From Saprospiraceae bacterium (GTDB lineage: Bacteria; Bacteroidota; Bacteroidia; Chitinophagales; Saprospiraceae), in NCBI GenBank assembly GCA_019638455.1, contig JAHBTU010000001.1:1255501-1319500 (forward strand): DNA of 64,000 bases, written 5' to 3'. The position numbers and the translations under genes were made by a program. The notes under the pieces were generated by a model. The model saw only the letters and a list, made by a program, of their open reading frames with translations. It did no database searches and was not told the origin of the DNA. This document shows, piece by piece, positions 10,489 through 59,118 of the stretch. Each line of letters opens with the position of its first letter. The stretch's first letter is position 1.

Positions 10489-10519
10489 AGCACCCCCGAC
10501 CACGTTGACACTTCAGACC

Positions 10520-11245
10520 ATGACACAAAAAATTGACATTCTAGCTATCGGCATCCACCCCGACGATGTGGAGCTCTGCGCAGCGGGCACTTTGCTCCAT
10601 CACGCCGCTTTGGGAAAGACATTTGGCATACTTGACCTGAGCCAAGGCGAATTGGGCACACGCGGCACAGCCGCCATCCGACTTCAAGAAGCAGCCCAGG
10701 CTGCCAAAGTGTTGGGGGCCGCCTTTCGCAAAACACTCGACATCCCCGACGGATTTTTCACGCACACGCCAGAACACTGGTTGAAAATTGTGCGCGTCAT
10801 TCGGGATTGTCGCCCCGAAATTGTGCTGTGCAATGCCCCCGAAGACCGCCACCCCGACCACGGCCGCTCTGCCAAATTGGAGACCGATGCTTGTTTCTAT
10901 GCTGGTTTGGAAAAAATAGAAACTTTCGACGATGAAGGGAAAAAGCAACAAAAGTGGCGGCCCAAGGCAGTATATCACTATATTCAAGACATCAATCTGC
11001 AACCAGATTTCGTGGTGGATGTCACGCCGTTCCTCGAACAAAAAAAAGCGGCCATACTCGCCTATCGCTCACAATTTTATGACCCCCACAATACGGAACC
11101 CAACACCCCCATCTCTGGCAAAGATTTTCTCGAATACCTGGAGGCCAAGGCAAAAGTATATGGCCGGTCTATTCAAGCACCTTATGCGGAAGGGTTTATC
11201 TTTTCTCGGATTCCGGGTGTGAACAACTTGTTTGACCTGCTTTGA
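10520..11245 (+). CDS. bshB1: Bacillithiol biosynthesis deacetylase BshB1
   Basis: 241 residues from ATG 10520. Zn-dependent LmbE/PIG-L deacetylase that removes acetate from GlcNAc-malate, second step of bacillithiol synthesis in the cytosol. The metal site is visible as GIHPDDVELCAAGT near the start and EDRHPDHGRSAKL in the middle (His-Pro-Asp-Asp and His-x-x-His-type ligands). The block LDLSQGELGTRGTAAIRLQEA and the end YAEGFIFSRIPG are hallmarks of the BshB1 branch rather than of general PIG-L proteins. Stands alone. A second, divergent PIG-L protein is encoded at 40195-40980. Confidence 0.95.
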   Translation: MTQKIDILAIGIHPDDVELCAAGTLLHHAALGKTFGILDLSQGELGTRGTAAIRLQEAAQAAKVLGAAFRKTLDIPDGFFTHTPEHWLKIVRVIRDCRPEIVLCNAPEDRHPDHGRSAKLETDACFYAGLEKIETFDDEGKKQQKWRPKAVYHYIQDINLQPDFVVDVTPFLEQKKAAILAYRSQFYDPHNTEPNTPISGKDFLEYLEAKAKVYGRSIQAPYAEGFIFSRIPGVNNLFDLL

Positions 11246-40194: not shown

Positions 40195-40980
40195 TCAACA
40201 ACAGCCGGTACGTCCCCCACCTGAGCAATGGTTGTCGGTAGATGTGCAGCACTCTTCGGGGCAGTCTTCCAGCCCTTCTGAGAGCGAAGCAAGCAAGTGA
40301 GTGGGCCGCTCGTTCACCAGTTCAAAATGGGTTCGATTGCCAATTCGCTCGATGACGTTGGTTGTTTTCACCATTTCCTGATAGGTTTCGTAGCAACTCA
40401 GGGCATTTTTCATGGCCTCGATATTTTCCTCGCCCAATTCGACGGTCACGGCGATGTCTTCCGGTTTTGTCCACGTCACCCTCGGGATGCCGCCTTCGAA
40501 AAACATAGGCAATCCTGTGTCCACGACCGTGAACAGCGCCAGCCGGCGCCAAAAACGGAGTCCATTTACTCTTTCGTAAAACAGCCGTTTTACGACATGG
40601 TGTAGGGCGATGTGGTCGTGGTGTCCGCTGCCGCCGTGAACGGGGTATGTGACCACCACATCAGGGCGGAAGGTTGTAATCCATCTTTTCATCTCTTTTT
40701 CGAGTTCGATAGGGTCTATTTTCGCAAGCCCACCGTCGGGATAGTCCAATATTTTCATGTCGGCAATACCGAGCGTTTGTTTCACTTTTTGCATTTCCCG
40801 TTCTCTCACCTGTCCCATTTCCTCGATGGTCAAGCCAAGTTGATGTCGCACTTTGGTAGCGCCGCCTTTGGTGAGCGTGAGCAAAAAAACTTGGTTTCCT
40901 TCCTGAATTTGCTTGTGAATGGCTCCGCCCGGCCCAAACGATTCGTCGTCGGGATGCGGAAAAACATAGAGGATTTTCAT
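40195..40980 (-). CDS. PIG-L/LmbE-family deacetylase with Cys-rich tail
   Basis: 261 residues from ATG 40980. Zn-dependent deacetylase fold: ILYVFPHPDDESFGPGGAI supplies the HPDDE metal site and GGSGHHDHIALHHVV the second cluster of His. This is closer to general PIG-L or BshB2-type proteins than to the BshB1 encoded at 10520. The tail after residue 235 is unusual: EDCPEECCTSTDNHCSGGG then RTGCC gives six Cys in 23 residues, probably a metal- or thiol-binding appendage. It sits downstream of sigZ and a Cys-rich secreted peptide, and a perfect 28-base palindrome lies 22 bases before its start. Substrate unknown. Confidence 0.9.
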   Translation of the reverse strand: MKILYVFPHPDDESFGPGGAIHKQIQEGNQVFLLTLTKGGATKVRHQLGLTIEEMGQVREREMQKVKQTLGIADMKILDYPDGGLAKIDPIELEKEMKRWITTFRPDVVVTYPVHGGSGHHDHIALHHVVKRLFYERVNGLRFWRRLALFTVVDTGLPMFFEGGIPRVTWTKPEDIAVTVELGEENIEAMKNALSCYETYQEMVKTTNVIERIGNRTHFELVNERPTHLLASLSEGLEDCPEECCTSTDNHCSGGGRTGCC

Positions 40981-41001
40981 GTTGATTGAAATTTGATAAG
41001 T

Positions 41002-41029
41002 GTACGGCGGATTTGCAAATCCGCCGTAC
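41002..41029. promoter_or_regulatory. Perfect 28-base palindrome before the PIG-L gene
   Basis: GTACGGCGGATTTG is followed at once by its reverse complement, with no loop. It lies 22 bases upstream of the PIG-L ATG, between it and the Cys-rich peptide gene. It could be a protein operator or one more dispersed intergenic palindrome; related GGATTTGCAAATCC palindromes are, to my memory, frequent in Bacteroidota. Confidence 0.6.
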
Positions 41030-41104
41030 CAGATGACAGGCAAAACTGCGAGACCTGAAAGGAGCGGGGCGCAAGACGGCGAGCGCCCTGAACCCCGCCT
41101 TTCG

Positions 41105-41263
41105 TCATTCGCAGCAGAACGGCTCGCAAGGCTCGTCGCAACTGCCGGGGTCGCATTGCGATTGATTACAACAAGCCGTTGCCGGGGTGGCGGCGGGTTT
41201 GCTTGCTATGACGGCGGCTGTAGCCGCGAGTGCGAACAAAGCAATGATTGCTCCTTTTTTCAT
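41105..41263 (-). CDS. Small Cys-rich exported peptide
   Basis: 52 residues from ATG 41263. A signal or anchor segment (KKGAIIALFALAATAAVIAS) is followed by a short Ala/Pro/Thr linker and a C-terminal stretch, ACCNQSQCDPGSCDEPCEP then FCCE, with seven Cys in 22 residues. The spacing is not a ferredoxin or known metallothionein motif I recognise. It starts 84 bases after the sigZ stop on the same strand, so it is likely co-transcribed with or controlled by that sigma factor. Proposed role: metal or thiol binding in the periplasm; this is inference from composition and context. Confidence 0.75.
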   Translation of the reverse strand: MKKGAIIALFALAATAAVIASKPAATPATACCNQSQCDPGSCDEPCEPFCCE

Positions 41264-41347
41264 TGAAAATAAAATTGAATGGTTGCACAAACAAAATCGT
41301 CTGTGGCAGGAAGACGGGAGCGGTGGGAAAAAGACGCAAAAGAGATT

Positions 41348-41893
41348 TTAGCAACTGCAATTTTTTTTGTCCACATCCAGCAGATTGCCATAGCGGTCGC
41401 TTTCGTAGGCGCAACAATCGAAAATCAGTTCTTTCAATTTTTCCTTGCCGCGTTGCACGCGCGACTTTGCGCCCGAATAGGAAATGTCCAGTCTTTGTGC
41501 CAACTCTTTTTGCGAAACTGCCTCGAACTCGGTCAAAATCAAGGCTTCCCGGTATTTGTCGGGTAGTTGCGCGATGAAGTTCCGCACACAACATTCGGCA
41601 ATGGCGGCATTCAGCGAGTGAGCGGTTTCTTCGACGGGCATCTCGTCGTTCAAATGCAGATTGGCAATCGAGGCATTTTTTTTCCTGAAATAATCCTTGG
41701 TAGCGTTGCGGGCAATGCCGTAGAGATAGTGGCGCAGATTGTCAGCCCGCTCAATCTTATCTGAGTGAAGCATGACTTTCAGAAAAATGTCCTGCAAAAT
41801 GTCGTCCGCGTCGTTGGGGTCTTTCACCGTTTTGACAATTAAACCCTTCAATGCGCGGTGAAATTCTGCCCAAATGCTTTGAATCTCGTTCAT
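41348..41893 (-). CDS. sigZ: ECF sigma factor, SigZ type
   Basis: 181 residues. Region 2 (about 1-80: ALKGLIVKTVKDPNDADDILQDIFLKV, RHYLYGIARNATKDYFRKK) and region 4 (about 105-160: FIAQLPDKYREALILTEFEAVSQKELAQRLDISYSGAKSRVQRGKEKLKEL) are intact. The C-terminal extension FDCCAYESDRYGNLLDVDKKNCSC has four Cys, the hallmark of the SigZ group, which has no classical anti-sigma neighbour; the Cys cluster may itself sense redox or metal. Begins 54 bases after pyrB and precedes the Cys-rich peptide gene. Confidence 0.93.
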   Translation of the reverse strand: MNEIQSIWAEFHRALKGLIVKTVKDPNDADDILQDIFLKVMLHSDKIERADNLRHYLYGIARNATKDYFRKKNASIANLHLNDEMPVEETAHSLNAAIAECCVRNFIAQLPDKYREALILTEFEAVSQKELAQRLDISYSGAKSRVQRGKEKLKELIFDCCAYESDRYGNLLDVDKKNCSC

Positions 41894-41947
41894 CGTAAAA
41901 ACCTTCGTGAGTCATAAGACACGGGAATCGGAAAAAAGACGCAATCC

Positions 41948-43779: not shown

Positions 43780-45312
43780 ATGCGCTTTTTTCCGCTTTTG
43801 GCCCTTTTGATGGGCTTTTTTCCCGCTCTTGCTCAGGAACCCGGCAAACACGAACTCGCTCCGTGCGGCACGCCGCCCGGCCTCGACCCGTTCCTGCTGG
43901 AATACCTTGCGTACCCGGAACAGTTCGTCGAGGAGCGTTCGTCGGACACGCTAAAATTGGGGGTTCAAATCCACTTGTTGGCTCGCGACAACGGCACGGG
44001 GCGTTTTTCGCCCGGCCAATTGCTGGATGCTTTTTGTCGCCTCAATCTCGATTTCGCCGACACGCGGATTCGACTGTATTTCAAAAACGAATGGAATTTG
44101 ATTAACAACACGGGTTGGTATCAGCACCAAACCATCCCGCAGGGCATTGACATGATGCTAACCAACAATGTAGAGGGGGCGCTCAATAGTTATTTTGCCG
44201 CGAACGTGGCGGGTAATTGTGGTTACAATTTGCCTTACGCGGGCGTGGCAATGTCTCACGGCTGCTCGGGGCCGAACGACCACACTTGGGCGCATGAGGT
44301 GGGGCACAACCTGTCACTACCCCACCCTTTCATCGGTTGGGAAGGCAAGGTGTACAGCTTCGCCAACCCAACGCCCGATACCCTGACATACGACTACACC
44401 TATTTTCACGACACGATTGACACGCAAATCCCGGCCCCACTCGACACGGCACTGGTGGAGTATGTGGACGGGAGCAATTGCGCCATCGCGGCTGACTTGA
44501 TTTGCGACACCAAGCCAGATTACCTAAGTTACCGCTGGGATTGTGACAATCAGGGGAAGAGCCTGGTGCAGCAGAAAGACCCTACTGGCGCGACCTTTTT
44601 TTCAGACGGCACGTTGTTCATGTCTTATTCCTTCGACAAGTGCGCCAACCGATTCTCCGACGAGCAAATCACGATTATGCGGGCTGCCTTGCTCAACAAA
44701 AAACCCGATTGGCTGACGGACGAGCAACCGCAAGGCGACATTGAGGGCACACCTACTTTGCTCGCTCCTATCGGCGGTCAGCTGTCGCCCACGGTGGGCA
44801 CGGTGCTGCAATGGTCGTCGGTGCCCAACGCAACACGTTATGTGGTGCAGATGTCGCGCTTTTCCAACTTCAGCATTCGGGAACTGGATGTGGTGACATC
44901 CGACACTACTTGGGCCTTGGGCAATTTGGTAGCCAATCAGAACTACTACTGGCGCGTGCGTCCTTTCAACGATTGGTATGTCTGCACCACGCTCAGCCCT
45001 TCGGCTACTTTCAAATCGGCGGTCGTCGTATCCACTTCGGCACCCGATGCCGAGGGTTGGCGCTGCTACCCGACGCTGCTTACGGCGGGTCAGCCGCTCA
45101 CGATGGAGACACCTGTGGGTTGGCTGCACCATTCGGTTCAGTGCTCGGTGTATGATGCGATGGGGCGTATGGTTTGGCAGTCAAATCAGTTGGTTGGAAG
45201 CGACAGAACCCTGCTTCATCTGCCATCTGCTTCCTGGGCCGCAGGCACCTATCGTTTGGTGGTGCTACATGAAGGAGGGGTGAAAACAGTGCCGTTAGTT
45301 GTTGCGCGATGA
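43780..45312 (+). CDS. Secreted zinc metalloprotease (metzincin, M43-like) with T9SS sorting domain
   Basis: 510 residues. Signal peptide (RFFPLLALLMGFFPALAQ). The zinc site HEVGHNLSLPH begins at residue 172 and fits HExxHxxxxxH of metzincins; conserved Cys before (GNCGYN, HGCSGPND) and after (NCAIAADLICDTKPDYLSYRWDC) suggest the disulphides of the pappalysin-like M43 group. A Fn3-like domain (about 325-415, VLQWSSVPNATRYVVQMS) and a type A sorting domain end the protein, so it is exported by the type IX system. A paralogue follows 154 bases downstream. Likely a digestive or predatory protease. Confidence 0.9.
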   Translation: MRFFPLLALLMGFFPALAQEPGKHELAPCGTPPGLDPFLLEYLAYPEQFVEERSSDTLKLGVQIHLLARDNGTGRFSPGQLLDAFCRLNLDFADTRIRLYFKNEWNLINNTGWYQHQTIPQGIDMMLTNNVEGALNSYFAANVAGNCGYNLPYAGVAMSHGCSGPNDHTWAHEVGHNLSLPHPFIGWEGKVYSFANPTPDTLTYDYTYFHDTIDTQIPAPLDTALVEYVDGSNCAIAADLICDTKPDYLSYRWDCDNQGKSLVQQKDPTGATFFSDGTLFMSYSFDKCANRFSDEQITIMRAALLNKKPDWLTDEQPQGDIEGTPTLLAPIGGQLSPTVGTVLQWSSVPNATRYVVQMSRFSNFSIRELDVVTSDTTWALGNLVANQNYYWRVRPFNDWYVCTTLSPSATFKSAVVVSTSAPDAEGWRCYPTLLTAGQPLTMETPVGWLHHSVQCSVYDAMGRMVWQSNQLVGSDRTLLHLPSASWAAGTYRLVVLHEGGVKTVPLVVAR

Positions 45313-45466
45313 GGCAGAAATGAGATTTTCTCAAAAAAATGTCGCGGTTTGGCGCTTGCCTCAACTGACTTTGTTGAAATGTGGCGGTGAAAGCAGACAT
45401 TTGCCTCACGAACAAACACCCGTACCCAAATTTCCCATCCAACTATTCAAACCTACTCTGTGTTCA

Positions 45467-46984
45467 ATGCAAATCAAACTTTACCCCGCACTTTTGTTGT
45501 TGCTGGTCAATCTCTTGTCGAAAGATGTACTTGCGCAACATCCAATTTCCGAGACCGGCACGGGCTGTGGCTATACCGGGAAATCACCGTGGCTTGAATG
45601 GTATCAAGCAAACAGGGCGAACATCACCCAAGCCCGTGGCGACAATGACACAGCTTGGCTGTACGTCCCCATCACCATACATTTGGTAGGCACCAGTTTT
45701 GGAACAGGGCACTACAAAATGGACCAAGCCTTGCGGGCGGTGTGCGAGATGAATGCTCAGTTTGCCGAAGGCCGGATTCGTTTTTATTTGATGCCGGGCG
45801 ACCCTGTGCGCTATCACAACAACAGCTCGTGGAACGACCACCAATACTTTCCGGGCGGCGACGAAATGATAAATGCCAATAGGTTGCCCAATCGAATGAA
45901 TGTGTTTGTGGTGTCGAACCCTGCGGGCAACTGCGGCTATGCTTGGCAAGATGCGATTGTGATTGGGGTCAATTGTTCCGGCCCCGGCAACACGGTATGG
46001 GCGCATGAGGCCGGCCATCATTTGTCATTGCCGCACCCATTTGTGGGGTGGGAGGGTTTTTCTTGGAATTACACTCAACCCGCCCCTGCTGAAATATATG
46101 GCCACCCGGTGGAAAAAACGGACACCTCAAATTGCTACTTTTCCGCAGATGGCTTTTGCGACACGCGACCGGACTATCTGAACTATCGCTGGCCTTGCAA
46201 CAGCGAGCAACAAAGCATCGTCATCCAACGCGACCCCGACGGGGTGCAATTCCGCTCCGACGCGACGCTTATCATGGGCTATGCTTATGATGCTTGCGCT
46301 TCCCGGTTCACCCCCGAGCAGATAGAGGCCATGCGCTCCAACATCTACTTTGAACATTCGCAGTATTTGCAAATTTTTGACCCACTCCCCGAAATTGATG
46401 ACAACGCAACGGTGCAACTCATCAGCCCGATAGACTCTCAGACTGTGCATTTCAAGGAAATCACTTTCACATGGGATACGGTGCCGGGCGCCACAATGTA
46501 CAACCTTGAAATCGGGTTGGCGCCCAATTTCAACCCCAAAATGTATAATCAAGTCCACTACAACACTACCTCCGTGACGGTCACGGGTGGAATCCCCAAC
46601 AATCGGGACATTTTGTGGCGGGTGCGGGCATACAGCGAGTGGGATGTGTGCCAACCCAACACCAATGCCCAAATAGGTGTTTTCAAAACCAAGAACCTGA
46701 CATCCACCAATGACTTGGAGCATGTGGCCGTGGCTGAACTATCGCCCAACCCCGTTTCGGGCGGGCTGCCTGCGGTGCTGAGTGTATCCTCCGATGAGTA
46801 CATTGAGGCTGTGCTCGCGGTGCACGATGCGGCAGGTAGGCTGTGTCAGTCCCAAAACGTCCGGCTTTCTCCCGGCGACAACCGCATCAACATTGCAACG
46901 GAAAGGCTCAACACGGGGATTTTTATCGTCTCGCTCCGCAACGAACGAGGAGCGTTGGTAAAACGCCTTGCCATCGCTGAGTAA
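45467..46984 (+). CDS. Secreted zinc metalloprotease, paralogue of the upstream gene
   Basis: 505 residues from ATG 45467, which opens a signal peptide (KLYPALLLLLVNLLSKDVLAQ); the ATG at 45299 overlaps the previous gene. Zinc site HEAGHHLSLPH begins at residue 180. Layout is the same as the neighbour: GNCGYAW and NCSGPGN before the site, FCDTRPDYLNYRWPC after it, a Fn3-like domain (ITFTWDTVPGATMYNLEIG), and a type A sorting domain (AELSPNPVSGGLPAVLSV...LNTGIFIVSLRNERG). Tandem duplication with clear divergence. Confidence 0.9.
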   Translation: MQIKLYPALLLLLVNLLSKDVLAQHPISETGTGCGYTGKSPWLEWYQANRANITQARGDNDTAWLYVPITIHLVGTSFGTGHYKMDQALRAVCEMNAQFAEGRIRFYLMPGDPVRYHNNSSWNDHQYFPGGDEMINANRLPNRMNVFVVSNPAGNCGYAWQDAIVIGVNCSGPGNTVWAHEAGHHLSLPHPFVGWEGFSWNYTQPAPAEIYGHPVEKTDTSNCYFSADGFCDTRPDYLNYRWPCNSEQQSIVIQRDPDGVQFRSDATLIMGYAYDACASRFTPEQIEAMRSNIYFEHSQYLQIFDPLPEIDDNATVQLISPIDSQTVHFKEITFTWDTVPGATMYNLEIGLAPNFNPKMYNQVHYNTTSVTVTGGIPNNRDILWRVRAYSEWDVCQPNTNAQIGVFKTKNLTSTNDLEHVAVAELSPNPVSGGLPAVLSVSSDEYIEAVLAVHDAAGRLCQSQNVRLSPGDNRINIATERLNTGIFIVSLRNERGALVKRLAIAE

Positions 46985-57387: not shown

Positions 57388-59118
57388 TCAGGCATCCGTT
57401 TTTTTGGTGCGCTTAGCTTTCGGCTTCTTTTCGGTCGCATCTTCTTCGACGATGCCCTTCGCGCTCTCCAATTCGTCGCCGACAGACTTGTGAACCACGT
57501 CGTCTATGATGCCCTTCGCGCTCTCCAGCTCCTCGCCGACCGATTTGTGAACCACGTCGTCTATGATGCCCTTCGCGCTCTCCAGCTCCTCGCCGGCCGA
57601 TTTGTGAACCACGTCGTCTATGATGCCCTTCGCGCTCTCCAATTCGTCGCCGACAGACTTGTGAACCACGTCGTCTATGATGCCCTTCGCGCTCTCCAGC
57701 TCCTCGCCGGCCGATTTGTGAACCACGTCGTCTATGATGATGCCAGCCTTTTTATCGGCATCAGCTTCTTCATTTCCCTTTTTCACCGCTTCCAAAACAT
57801 CTTCCACCACGTCGGAGGCTTTTTTCATCACCTCATCTGCGATGTCTTCTGCCTTTTCCATCGCCACAGAGGCTACGGCTTTGACAGAGTCGAGCGCGTC
57901 CATCAAAACATCGCCGAGCACAGTGCCTGCTGCTTCAATAAATTCGCCTGTTTCTTCCGTGGTTGAGGGGGCGTTGGGTCTTGTCTTGATTTGCGCGGCG
58001 ATTTCAGATTTTGCCTTTTCCTTGGCCGCTTCGATTTTTTTCCGCTCCTCGTCTTTTTCTGCTTTGCGGGCTTCTTTGTCCTTTGCCAACTCCAGCTGGC
58101 GCTGCACATCGTCGCGCACTTGGGTGAGTTCAGCCAATTTCTCGCGCTTGGATGCCAAGCGGTCTTCAATCATTTTGATTTTGGCGATGCGTATTTGCGC
58201 CTCGAGCTGCCCTTCGCTTGTGTTTACCTTTTTATGCTGGAAAGCGAGCTCTTCCTCGTCGCGCCGCACATTGTCCGCCATGCGCTTGATGGCCTCGTTG
58301 AGGCCGGCGATGCGGCGAGCATTGCGCTCGACCAATGAGCCTTCGTTGGCCGATGGTCCGAATTTGCGGTTTTTCGCTTTTTTGAATGCGGCATCCAAGC
58401 GATTCCACAGTTGGTTGCGGTGTTCGTTGGTCATCTGCACGTCGCGGTAGCGGCGTTGCAGCTGTTTGAGTTCTTCCAACACACTATTGATTTTTTGGCC
58501 GCCAGCCTCTATGCGGGCTTCGATGTCGGTCAATGTTTTGTTGAACTCGTCGAATACAGATTGGGATGCGGCCGCGAACTCGCTATTGACGCGCGAGCGG
58601 ATTTTTTTCAACTCCTCAAAAAGGGCATTGATATTGTCGCGCAAATTGTCGGCATGCTCGCGGTAAAGATTGCGTTCCCGGCTTTGGGTTTGCACTTTGT
58701 CCCAGAATGACCTCAGCCCTTGAAAAATTTTGTTGTCGTAGGAAGTCAATGCCTCGATTTTCTCTTTGAACTCTGTCAGCTCTTGTTGGTAGGTTTCGTG
58801 AAGTTTGGAGGATAGCACAGCAAACTGCCACTCGGTCTGTGCTCGAGAGATAAGGTCTGTCCGGTCTGTTTTGATGTCGTCGGGCAAAAGCGTTTCGGTG
58901 ATGCTGAGCGGACGTTCGATGGCGGTGTGCCCTTCTGGAAAGGCCACTTCTTTCCCACTGCGCCACTGGTTCATTATTTTGTTCACGAAGTCATCGGTGG
59001 CAATGGCTAATGGGAACGTGTAAAGCATTACTTTGCTGTTATCTGCTTTAAGTTCCAGAGCAATCAGGATTTTTTCGTCGTCGGCGTTGGTTCCCCAAAC
59101 TACTACTTTGTTCTTCAT
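57388..59118 (-). CDS. Coiled-coil protein with DUF349-like region and five 19-residue C-terminal repeats
   Basis: 576 residues, no signal peptide. Residues 1-90 are globular. From about 95 to 340 the chain is a long charged coiled coil in which QELTEFKEKIEALTS, RSFWDKVQTQSRERN and LWNRLDAAFKKAKNRKF resemble DUF349-type helical repeats. An Ala/Lys/Glu-rich helix follows, then an Ala/Val-rich amphipathic stretch (DSVKAVASVAMEKAEDIADE). At about 465-560 a unit GIIDDVVHKSxGxELESAK occurs five times in tandem, and the tail is Lys-rich (KKPKAKRTKK). Role unknown; the Lys-rich end could bind nucleic acid. Likely cytosolic. It diverges from nothing and lies downstream of asd on the same strand. Confidence 0.85.
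   Translation of the reverse strand: MKNKVVVWGTNADDEKILIALELKADNSKVMLYTFPLAIATDDFVNKIMNQWRSGKEVAFPEGHTAIERPLSITETLLPDDIKTDRTDLISRAQTEWQFAVLSSKLHETYQQELTEFKEKIEALTSYDNKIFQGLRSFWDKVQTQSRERNLYREHADNLRDNINALFEELKKIRSRVNSEFAAASQSVFDEFNKTLTDIEARIEAGGQKINSVLEELKQLQRRYRDVQMTNEHRNQLWNRLDAAFKKAKNRKFGPSANEGSLVERNARRIAGLNEAIKRMADNVRRDEEELAFQHKKVNTSEGQLEAQIRIAKIKMIEDRLASKREKLAELTQVRDDVQRQLELAKDKEARKAEKDEERKKIEAAKEKAKSEIAAQIKTRPNAPSTTEETGEFIEAAGTVLGDVLMDALDSVKAVASVAMEKAEDIADEVMKKASDVVEDVLEAVKKGNEEADADKKAGIIIDDVVHKSAGEELESAKGIIDDVVHKSVGDELESAKGIIDDVVHKSAGEELESAKGIIDDVVHKSVGEELESAKGIIDDVVHKSVGDELESAKGIVEEDATEKKPKAKRTKKTDA
57451..57735 (-). repeat. Five tandem 57-bp repeats within the coiled-coil gene
   Basis: Units at 57451, 57508, 57565, 57622 and 57679, each exactly 57 bases, coding for 19 residues. 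Differences between units are few and cluster at the codons giving SVGDE, SVGEE or SAGEE, so the array has expanded or been homogenised recently. Confidence 0.95.

Follow-up and report, generated by a model that had tools for sequence, protein, structure and literature searches.

The three-gene locus

The question raised by a minus-strand locus of a Saprospiraceae bacterium (accession no. JAHBTU010000001.1; 1,255,501–1,319,500) is whether three consecutive genes, the products of which each end in a cluster of cysteines (Cys), belong together, and which signal they would answer. The genes were found in series downstream of pyrR and pyrB in this 64,000-nucleotide stretch, here called the window, and encode the sigma factor SigZ, an exported-type Cys-rich peptide and a PIG-L family deacetylase/amidase (Table 1). 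The products were confirmed to hold four Cys in the last 22 residues (CC at 160–161, C179 and C181), seven Cys in 22 residues (from an open reading frame, ORF, with an ATG start) and six Cys in the last 22 residues, respectively. The original prediction that the three genes form a functional module is supported, and SigZ very probably drives the peptide gene, since the same rare promoter precedes sigZ and the peptide gene and since the trio recurs in unrelated genera.

A promoter-like motif before sigZ and its neighbour

A recurring motif, TGCGTCYTTT followed after 11–12 bp by CGTCT or CGTGT, was found upstream of sigZ and of its neighbour (full pattern TGCGTCYTTTT-N(about 11)-CGTST; the −35 part was counted as TGCGTC[CT]TTT). 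In 100 SigZ loci (1.008 Mb) the −35 part occurred 89 times on the sigZ strand versus five times on the other. Most occurrences preceded sigZ, a Cys-rich peptide or an arsenic gene (ArsM or ArsI): the 150 bp upstream contained it for 28/100 sigZ genes, 25/51 arsenic neighbours and 14/33 Cys peptides, compared to 8/184 of the remaining near genes on the same strand, 2/112 of the near genes on the opposite strand and none of 569 far genes. The motif was first noticed in the same loci in which it was later counted; the comparison between strands, the control with far genes and the searches of whole genomes are independent of this.

In the 5.77-Mb genome that contains the window (G000), the full pattern showed three matches, two of which are the module sites. 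The third match (C4:146216) falls within an unrelated, oppositely oriented gene and lacks an equivalent in the same-genus genome G007, and was therefore regarded as due to chance. In three other genomes all genome-wide matches were module sites (G007, 2/2; G111, 2/2; G195, 3/3). One SigZ subclade was found to use a variant, TGCATCATTTT-N-CGTCT, as co-evolution of sigma factor and promoter would predict. From these promoter sequences we strongly infer that SigZ regulates the module.

Recurrence and conservation of the three genes

PIG-L homologues were sought in the phylum and the class. The combination of PIG-L, Cys peptide and Cys-tailed sigma factor was found in G000/G007, G542 and G722, in three different gene orders: G542 has PIG-L, peptide and sigma factor, and G722 has peptide, PIG-L and sigma factor, nearly without gaps. 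G542 and G722 belong to unrelated genera and have matching promoters. In G722, TGCGTCTTTCGGGAAGGCCCGTCGTCCATA precedes the operon that includes PIG-L; in G542, the variant of its own SigZ clade (TGCATCATTTT...CGTCT) precedes PIG-L; and in G316, in which PIG-L and sigZ are on different contigs, TGCGTCATTTTTGGAAAAGCATCGTCTTTC was found 60 bp before PIG-L. No matching promoter was detected at the other 32 of 35 scanned PIG-L loci. Membership of PIG-L in the regulon is thus best indicated by the SigZ-type promoters of G722, G542 and G316. For the window, the prediction that SigZ also drives the PIG-L gene did not stand in full: the gene lacks its own promoter and would depend on read-through from the one before the peptide gene. 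In L112 a divergent PIG-L gene lies upstream of SigZ but outside the promoter-driven unit, and it was not counted as an instance. No close PIG-L was found in a second genome of the G722 family (one genus, 45 genomes).

In G007 the order of all three genes is identical. The peptide showed a non-synonymous to synonymous rate ratio (dN/dS) of 0.044 between G000 and G007, with six synonymous and no non-synonymous differences in its last 24 residues, all six Cys of the PIG-L tail are kept, and the stretch between sigZ and the peptide gene is well conserved. In the window the PIG-L gene follows the peptide gene after 124 bp; in G007 this distance is 503 bp and includes inserted repeats.

These observations also bear on chance adjacency of three unrelated Cys-ending genes, which would fit the rarity of PIG-L in the genus, the presence of its tail in two genomes and the fact that Cys-rich ORFs are not very rare in the window, but which is already contradicted by the shared rare promoter and by the recurrence in other genera, besides the purifying selection and the neighbourhood statistics given below, and which we consider extremely improbable. 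Composition alone is modest evidence, since order-3 surrogates of the window gave 0.37 Cys-rich ORFs per 64 kb versus three in the real window.

Table 1. Coordinates in the window of the three genes and of associated features; gene models are mechanical ORF calls.
Feature	Position	Strand	Remarks
sigZ, extracytoplasmic function (ECF) sigma factor with C-terminal Cys tail	41348..41893	-	181 amino acids (aa); TIGR02959 match
Exported-type Cys-rich peptide, 52 aa	41105..41263	-	Signal-peptide-like N-terminus, then CC-x4-C-x4-C-x3-C-x3-CC
PIG-L family deacetylase/amidase	40195..40980	-	261 aa; PHPDDE motif and H123 present
Predicted SigZ promoter before sigZ, TGCGTCTTTTTTCCGATTCCCGTGTCTTATG	41913..41943	-	Motif as in peptide promoter and other SigZ loci
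Predicted SigZ promoter before peptide, TGCGTCTTTTTCCCACCGCTCCCGTCTTCC	41309..41338	-	Full-pattern match; kept in G007
SigZ C-terminal Cys tail, proposed sensor	41351..41416	-	Residues 160–181, CC-x17-C-x-C
SigZ linker CC between regions 2 and 4	41588..41593	-	Residues 101–102; position comparable to CorE linker CXC (PMC8999054)
PIG-L Cys tail, CPEECCTSTDNHCSGGGRTGCC	40198..40263	-	Residues 240–261; six Cys
Perfect palindrome, 28 bp	41002..41029	.	Between peptide and PIG-L genes; no T-run

Genes surrounding sigZ in other genomes

For the sample, 60 SigZ regions were taken from whole genomes, and named genomes provided 80 loci with relatives of the sigma factor, 43 of which entered the analysis. 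Small Cys-rich ORFs, defined as ORFs of at most 100 aa with six or more Cys in 30, were indeed found next to sigZ elsewhere, as the original prediction had anticipated: across 61 SigZ regions, 18 lay on the sigZ strand within 300 bp of sigZ (36 kb searched in total), with none on the opposite strand at that distance and six in all remaining sequence on either strand. The original prediction had also taken sigZ genes lacking such a neighbour as a sign of coincidence; here the picture was mixed, many sigZ genes adjoining arsenic genes instead.

Two sorts of peptide were distinguished. Peptides of 32–42 aa of the CxC type lie just upstream (e.g., in the Bacteroidota Kordia and Lutibacter), and exported-type or soluble ones lie downstream. 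Several downstream peptides have an N-terminal hydrophobic stretch followed by CC-x4/5-C, as in the window peptide, and peptides resembling the latter directly follow SigZ in L094, L096, L097 and L154. Metallothionein-like peptides of 32–42 aa with CxC/CxxC motifs were observed just upstream of sigZ in L112, L114, L116, L117, L118, L135, L137, L139, L140, L142, L149, L150, L164, L180 and L183; two of these upstream peptides were searched against Pfam and NCBIfam and showed no match.

Genes labelled as arsenic-related made up 48/246 genes near SigZ versus 5/394 far from it (labels transferred by phmmer from one or two query sequences for each family; Fisher p = 2e-16, which overstates the certainty since SigZ loci are phylogenetically non-independent). 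Examples of ArsM, ArsI and ACR3 beside SigZ pass their curated cut-offs, and SigZ is paired with ArsM in, for instance, Nubsella zeaxanthinifaciens TDMA-5; further neighbours are an arsenate-reductase-like protein, an ArsE-like thioredoxin with a SaoE-like permease, and an ArsO-like flavoprotein with a major facilitator superfamily (MFS) transporter. An arsenic gene or Cys peptide was nearby for 68/93 tailed SigZ versus 0/7 tail-less ones, a contrast that is suggestive only, as several of the tail-less sequences are possibly badly modelled genes, and L109, L122 and L127 among them form one clade.

The members of this tail-less clade have a PhzF-like neighbour instead of arsenic or Cys-peptide genes, and a TGCGTC-type promoter is kept before it in L109 and L122, which suggests a re-wired regulon. 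A Cys-tailed ArsO-like flavoprotein with an MFS transporter forms a recurrent SigZ-linked cluster in L110, L111, L126, L092 and L162, with a PatB-type C-S lyase in some. Besides, the cyanobacterial SigZ loci L161 and L166 have a neighbour of 209–224 aa with a long terminal Cys tail, preceded by the same promoter type.

In the phylogenetic tree, the window SigZ fell into a clade of six rows (support 97/95); four of the other five members lie next to ArsM, and the fifth lies next to an ArsO-like flavoprotein with an MFS transporter. A wider clade of ten rows (100/95) adds loci with exported-type Cys peptides. The SigZ of G542 belongs to a separate clade whose other members adjoin ArsO-like genes. 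With such neighbours in its clade, arsenic is the most economical signal for the window SigZ, most likely in its trivalent form. The metal or redox signal proposed originally is thereby narrowed to probably arsenic, arsenic genes instead of Cys peptides being found beside many sigZ genes.

Properties of SigZ, the peptide and PIG-L

The window SigZ narrowly passes the cut-off of TIGR02959 (169.6 bits; cut-off 168.65) and stays below that of a second SigZ model, NF007215 (184.3 versus 212). Among homologues with a residue at the position, the tail Cys are conserved in 58/61 (C160), 55/61 (C161), 57/58 (C179) and 51/51 (C181); in an alignment of 52 SigZ sequences the invariant positions are limited to D31, C160 and C161, with C181 close to invariant. 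The linker CC, absent from the original description, is less conserved (C102 in 42/61 and C101 in 12/61), most homologues having a single Cys in the linker. The tail has low confidence in the predicted structure, and no metal-site geometry is therefore claimed.

In the peptide, a basic start is followed by a hydrophobic stretch and then by a short mature part rich in Cys. It showed no NCBIfam match to known metallothionein or Cys-rich families, its only Pfam match, DUF4148 (E = 0.026), is below the cut-off of that family, and a tblastn search of plasmids returned no matches.

PIG-L belongs to the PF02585 superfamily (E = 3.7e-31; 108.8 bits versus a cut-off of 28.2), and has the metal-binding motif of the family, H9, D11, D12 and H123 being invariant in 26 sequences. 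The nearest NCBIfam models are BshB2 and Mca. A role as a true BshB was rejected, the scores for both BshB2 (65.5 versus 195.25) and BshB1 (47.8 versus 182.5) being below the equivalog cut-offs; the score for Mca was likewise below (62.3 versus 277.15), and that for MshB far below its cut-off. The predicted fold is closest to MshB, followed by other PIG-L deacetylases, with BshB further down the list. The BshB1 gene reported earlier was confirmed in the window (10505–11245), and BshC is also present in the genome.

The PIG-L Cys tail, predicted to be disordered (predicted local distance difference test score, pLDDT, mostly <50), resembles the tails of ArsM and ArsO-like SigZ neighbours elsewhere and of the genome's own ArsM. 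Among the C-termini of 35 PIG-L homologues it was found in that of G007 only, which limits it to G000 and G007. The tail is thus a local, lineage-specific addition, and its reading as a conserved part of the module was rejected.

Proposed mechanism and alternative explanations

Among comparable sigma factors, CorE of Myxococcus is the best known: it has Cys in the linker as well as in a Cys-rich extension at the C-terminus, and it is controlled by metal without an anti-sigma factor (PMC8999054, PMC3107203). The sequence evidence makes it probable that SigZ is a CorE-like one-component sensor of a toxicant, likely As(III), with the peptide as a periplasmic thiol trap and PIG-L as a second bacillithiol-type amidase/deacetylase. 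The CC...CxC tail, in the window clade together with the linker CC, would bind this toxicant, a thiol-seeking one and most likely As(III), and binding would switch SigZ between an inactive and an active state with no anti-sigma factor involved, by analogy with CorE. Active SigZ would then recognize the full promoter pattern and turn on sigZ and the peptide gene, and PIG-L would probably be expressed by the read-through mentioned above. The presumably exported peptide may trap the toxicant in the periplasm, and PIG-L, as a paralogue of bacillithiol deacetylases, would probably raise the bacillithiol supply or process bacillithiol conjugates, its short tail being a putative metalloid-binding add-on as on the ArsM and ArsO-like SigZ neighbours.

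Several observations weigh against this reading. The window module contains no arsenic enzyme, and the genome's own ArsM is not supported as a SigZ target; it is located elsewhere and lacks the strict promoter. The strict promoter is found before sigZ itself in a minority of loci (28/100). PIG-L was present in only one other of the sampled same-genus genomes, its tail is limited to the same two genomes, its gene lacks its own promoter in the window, and 503 bp precede it in G007. The SigZ subclade with upstream metallothionein-like peptides mostly has no arsenic gene nearby; it appears to point to metals generally, and the ligand may therefore differ between subclades.

An alternative is that the module answers, in the manner of CorE, to a metal (e.g., Cu, Cd, Zn or Hg) and not to arsenic. 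CorE and CorE2 respond to Cu and Cd/Zn via their C-terminal Cys (PMC8999054, PMC3107203), upstream of sigZ, 17 loci encode small Cys-rich peptides that are metallothionein-like and mostly of the CxC type, and the window module includes no arsenic enzyme. However, the closest relatives of the window SigZ are neighbours of ArsM or ArsO-like genes, genes with an arsenic label are found repeatedly near SigZ, and no copper or cadmium exporter was recognized in the neighbourhood listings, which carry no systematic annotation for such exporters. We therefore consider a response to these metals unlikely.

SigZ might instead sense thiol redox state through a disulphide in its tail, with PIG-L replenishing bacillithiol and the peptide acting as a redox buffer. 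The Cys pairs, the relationship of PIG-L to bacillithiol and mycothiol enzymes, the presence of BshB1 and BshC, and, at some loci, a PatB C-S lyase and thioredoxin-like proteins next to SigZ would agree with this, but genes for arsenic methylation, C-As lyase and arsenite efflux share the same promoter or operon and would be unneeded in a general redox response, which makes a redox sensor quite improbable.

Returning to the arsenic-sensing interpretation, a broader form of it, to which we give slightly less than an even chance, is that in many bacteria sigma factors with an As(III)-sensing Cys tail, without ArsR, drive either genes of arsenic methylation or of arsenic efflux, or an exported arsenic-trapping peptide and a bacillithiol-type amidase from one conserved promoter. 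To our knowledge, no arsenic-sensing sigma factor has been described so far.

Comparison with known systems

CorE and CorE2 of Myxococcus xanthus (former ECF44, now ECF238) are, like SigZ, ECF sigma factors with C-terminal and linker Cys and no linked anti-sigma factor. The window SigZ has the Cys-rich extension after region 4 that marks CorE-like proteins (ECF44/ECF238), and in place of the CXC in the linker between regions 2 and 4 (former ECF44) it has CC at 101–102, homologues having CC or a single C. The CC-x17-CxC tail differs from the four invariant Cys of CorE (181, 184, 192 and 194), and the regulon of SigZ appears to be of arsenic type. Since Cys spacing and linker motif differ, a CorE-like way of working is proposed and membership of the group is not claimed. 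The CorE survey of 2011 included 21 proteins from four phyla, none of them Bacteroidota. With the SigZ family (TIGR02959) the window protein shares the same Cys tail besides passing the curated cut-off.

Homologous SigZ genes adjoin ars operon genes (ArsM, ArsI, ACR3, ArsC) and have common promoters with them, whereas the window module lacks those enzymes and its proposed regulator is a sigma factor rather than ArsR. PIG-L is similar to the bacillithiol and mycothiol enzymes BshB2, Mca and MshB in fold, in PHPDDE and His motifs, in its best NCBIfam matches and in having MshB as best structural match, but it is far below their equivalog cut-offs and Cys-tailed, and the genome has a separate BshB1. 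The peptide resembles bacterial metallothioneins and other Cys-rich peptides in very high Cys content and very short length, but it is apparently exported and stays below the cut-offs of all Pfam and NCBIfam families.

The literature searched yielded neither a signal nor a promoter or regulon for SigZ, and nothing relevant was returned for SigZ with arsenic or for the promoter sequence (coverage incomplete). This named sigma factor gains a testable promoter, regulon and likely signal. Short Cys-rich peptides without a family are brought out, those downstream of SigZ being of the exported type and those upstream metallothionein-like, and a PIG-L subgroup is linked to toxic-metalloid defence. 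Together, the sequences suggest a widespread, previously undescribed arsenic or toxic-metal alarm; if this is true, many Bacteroidota and members of other phyla would respond to arsenic via a directly sensing sigma factor, instead of or besides ArsR.

Other features of the window

The palindrome between the peptide and PIG-L genes is the sole copy in the window, and its G007 version is altered on both arms. The region 43780–46984 contains two neighbouring related ORFs resembling secreted metalloproteases (HEVGHNLSLPHPF and HEAGHHLSLPHPF motifs), apparently a tandem duplication. Finally, the ORF at 57388–59118 contains several near-identical repeats (DVVHKSAGEELESAKGII) close to its C-terminus.
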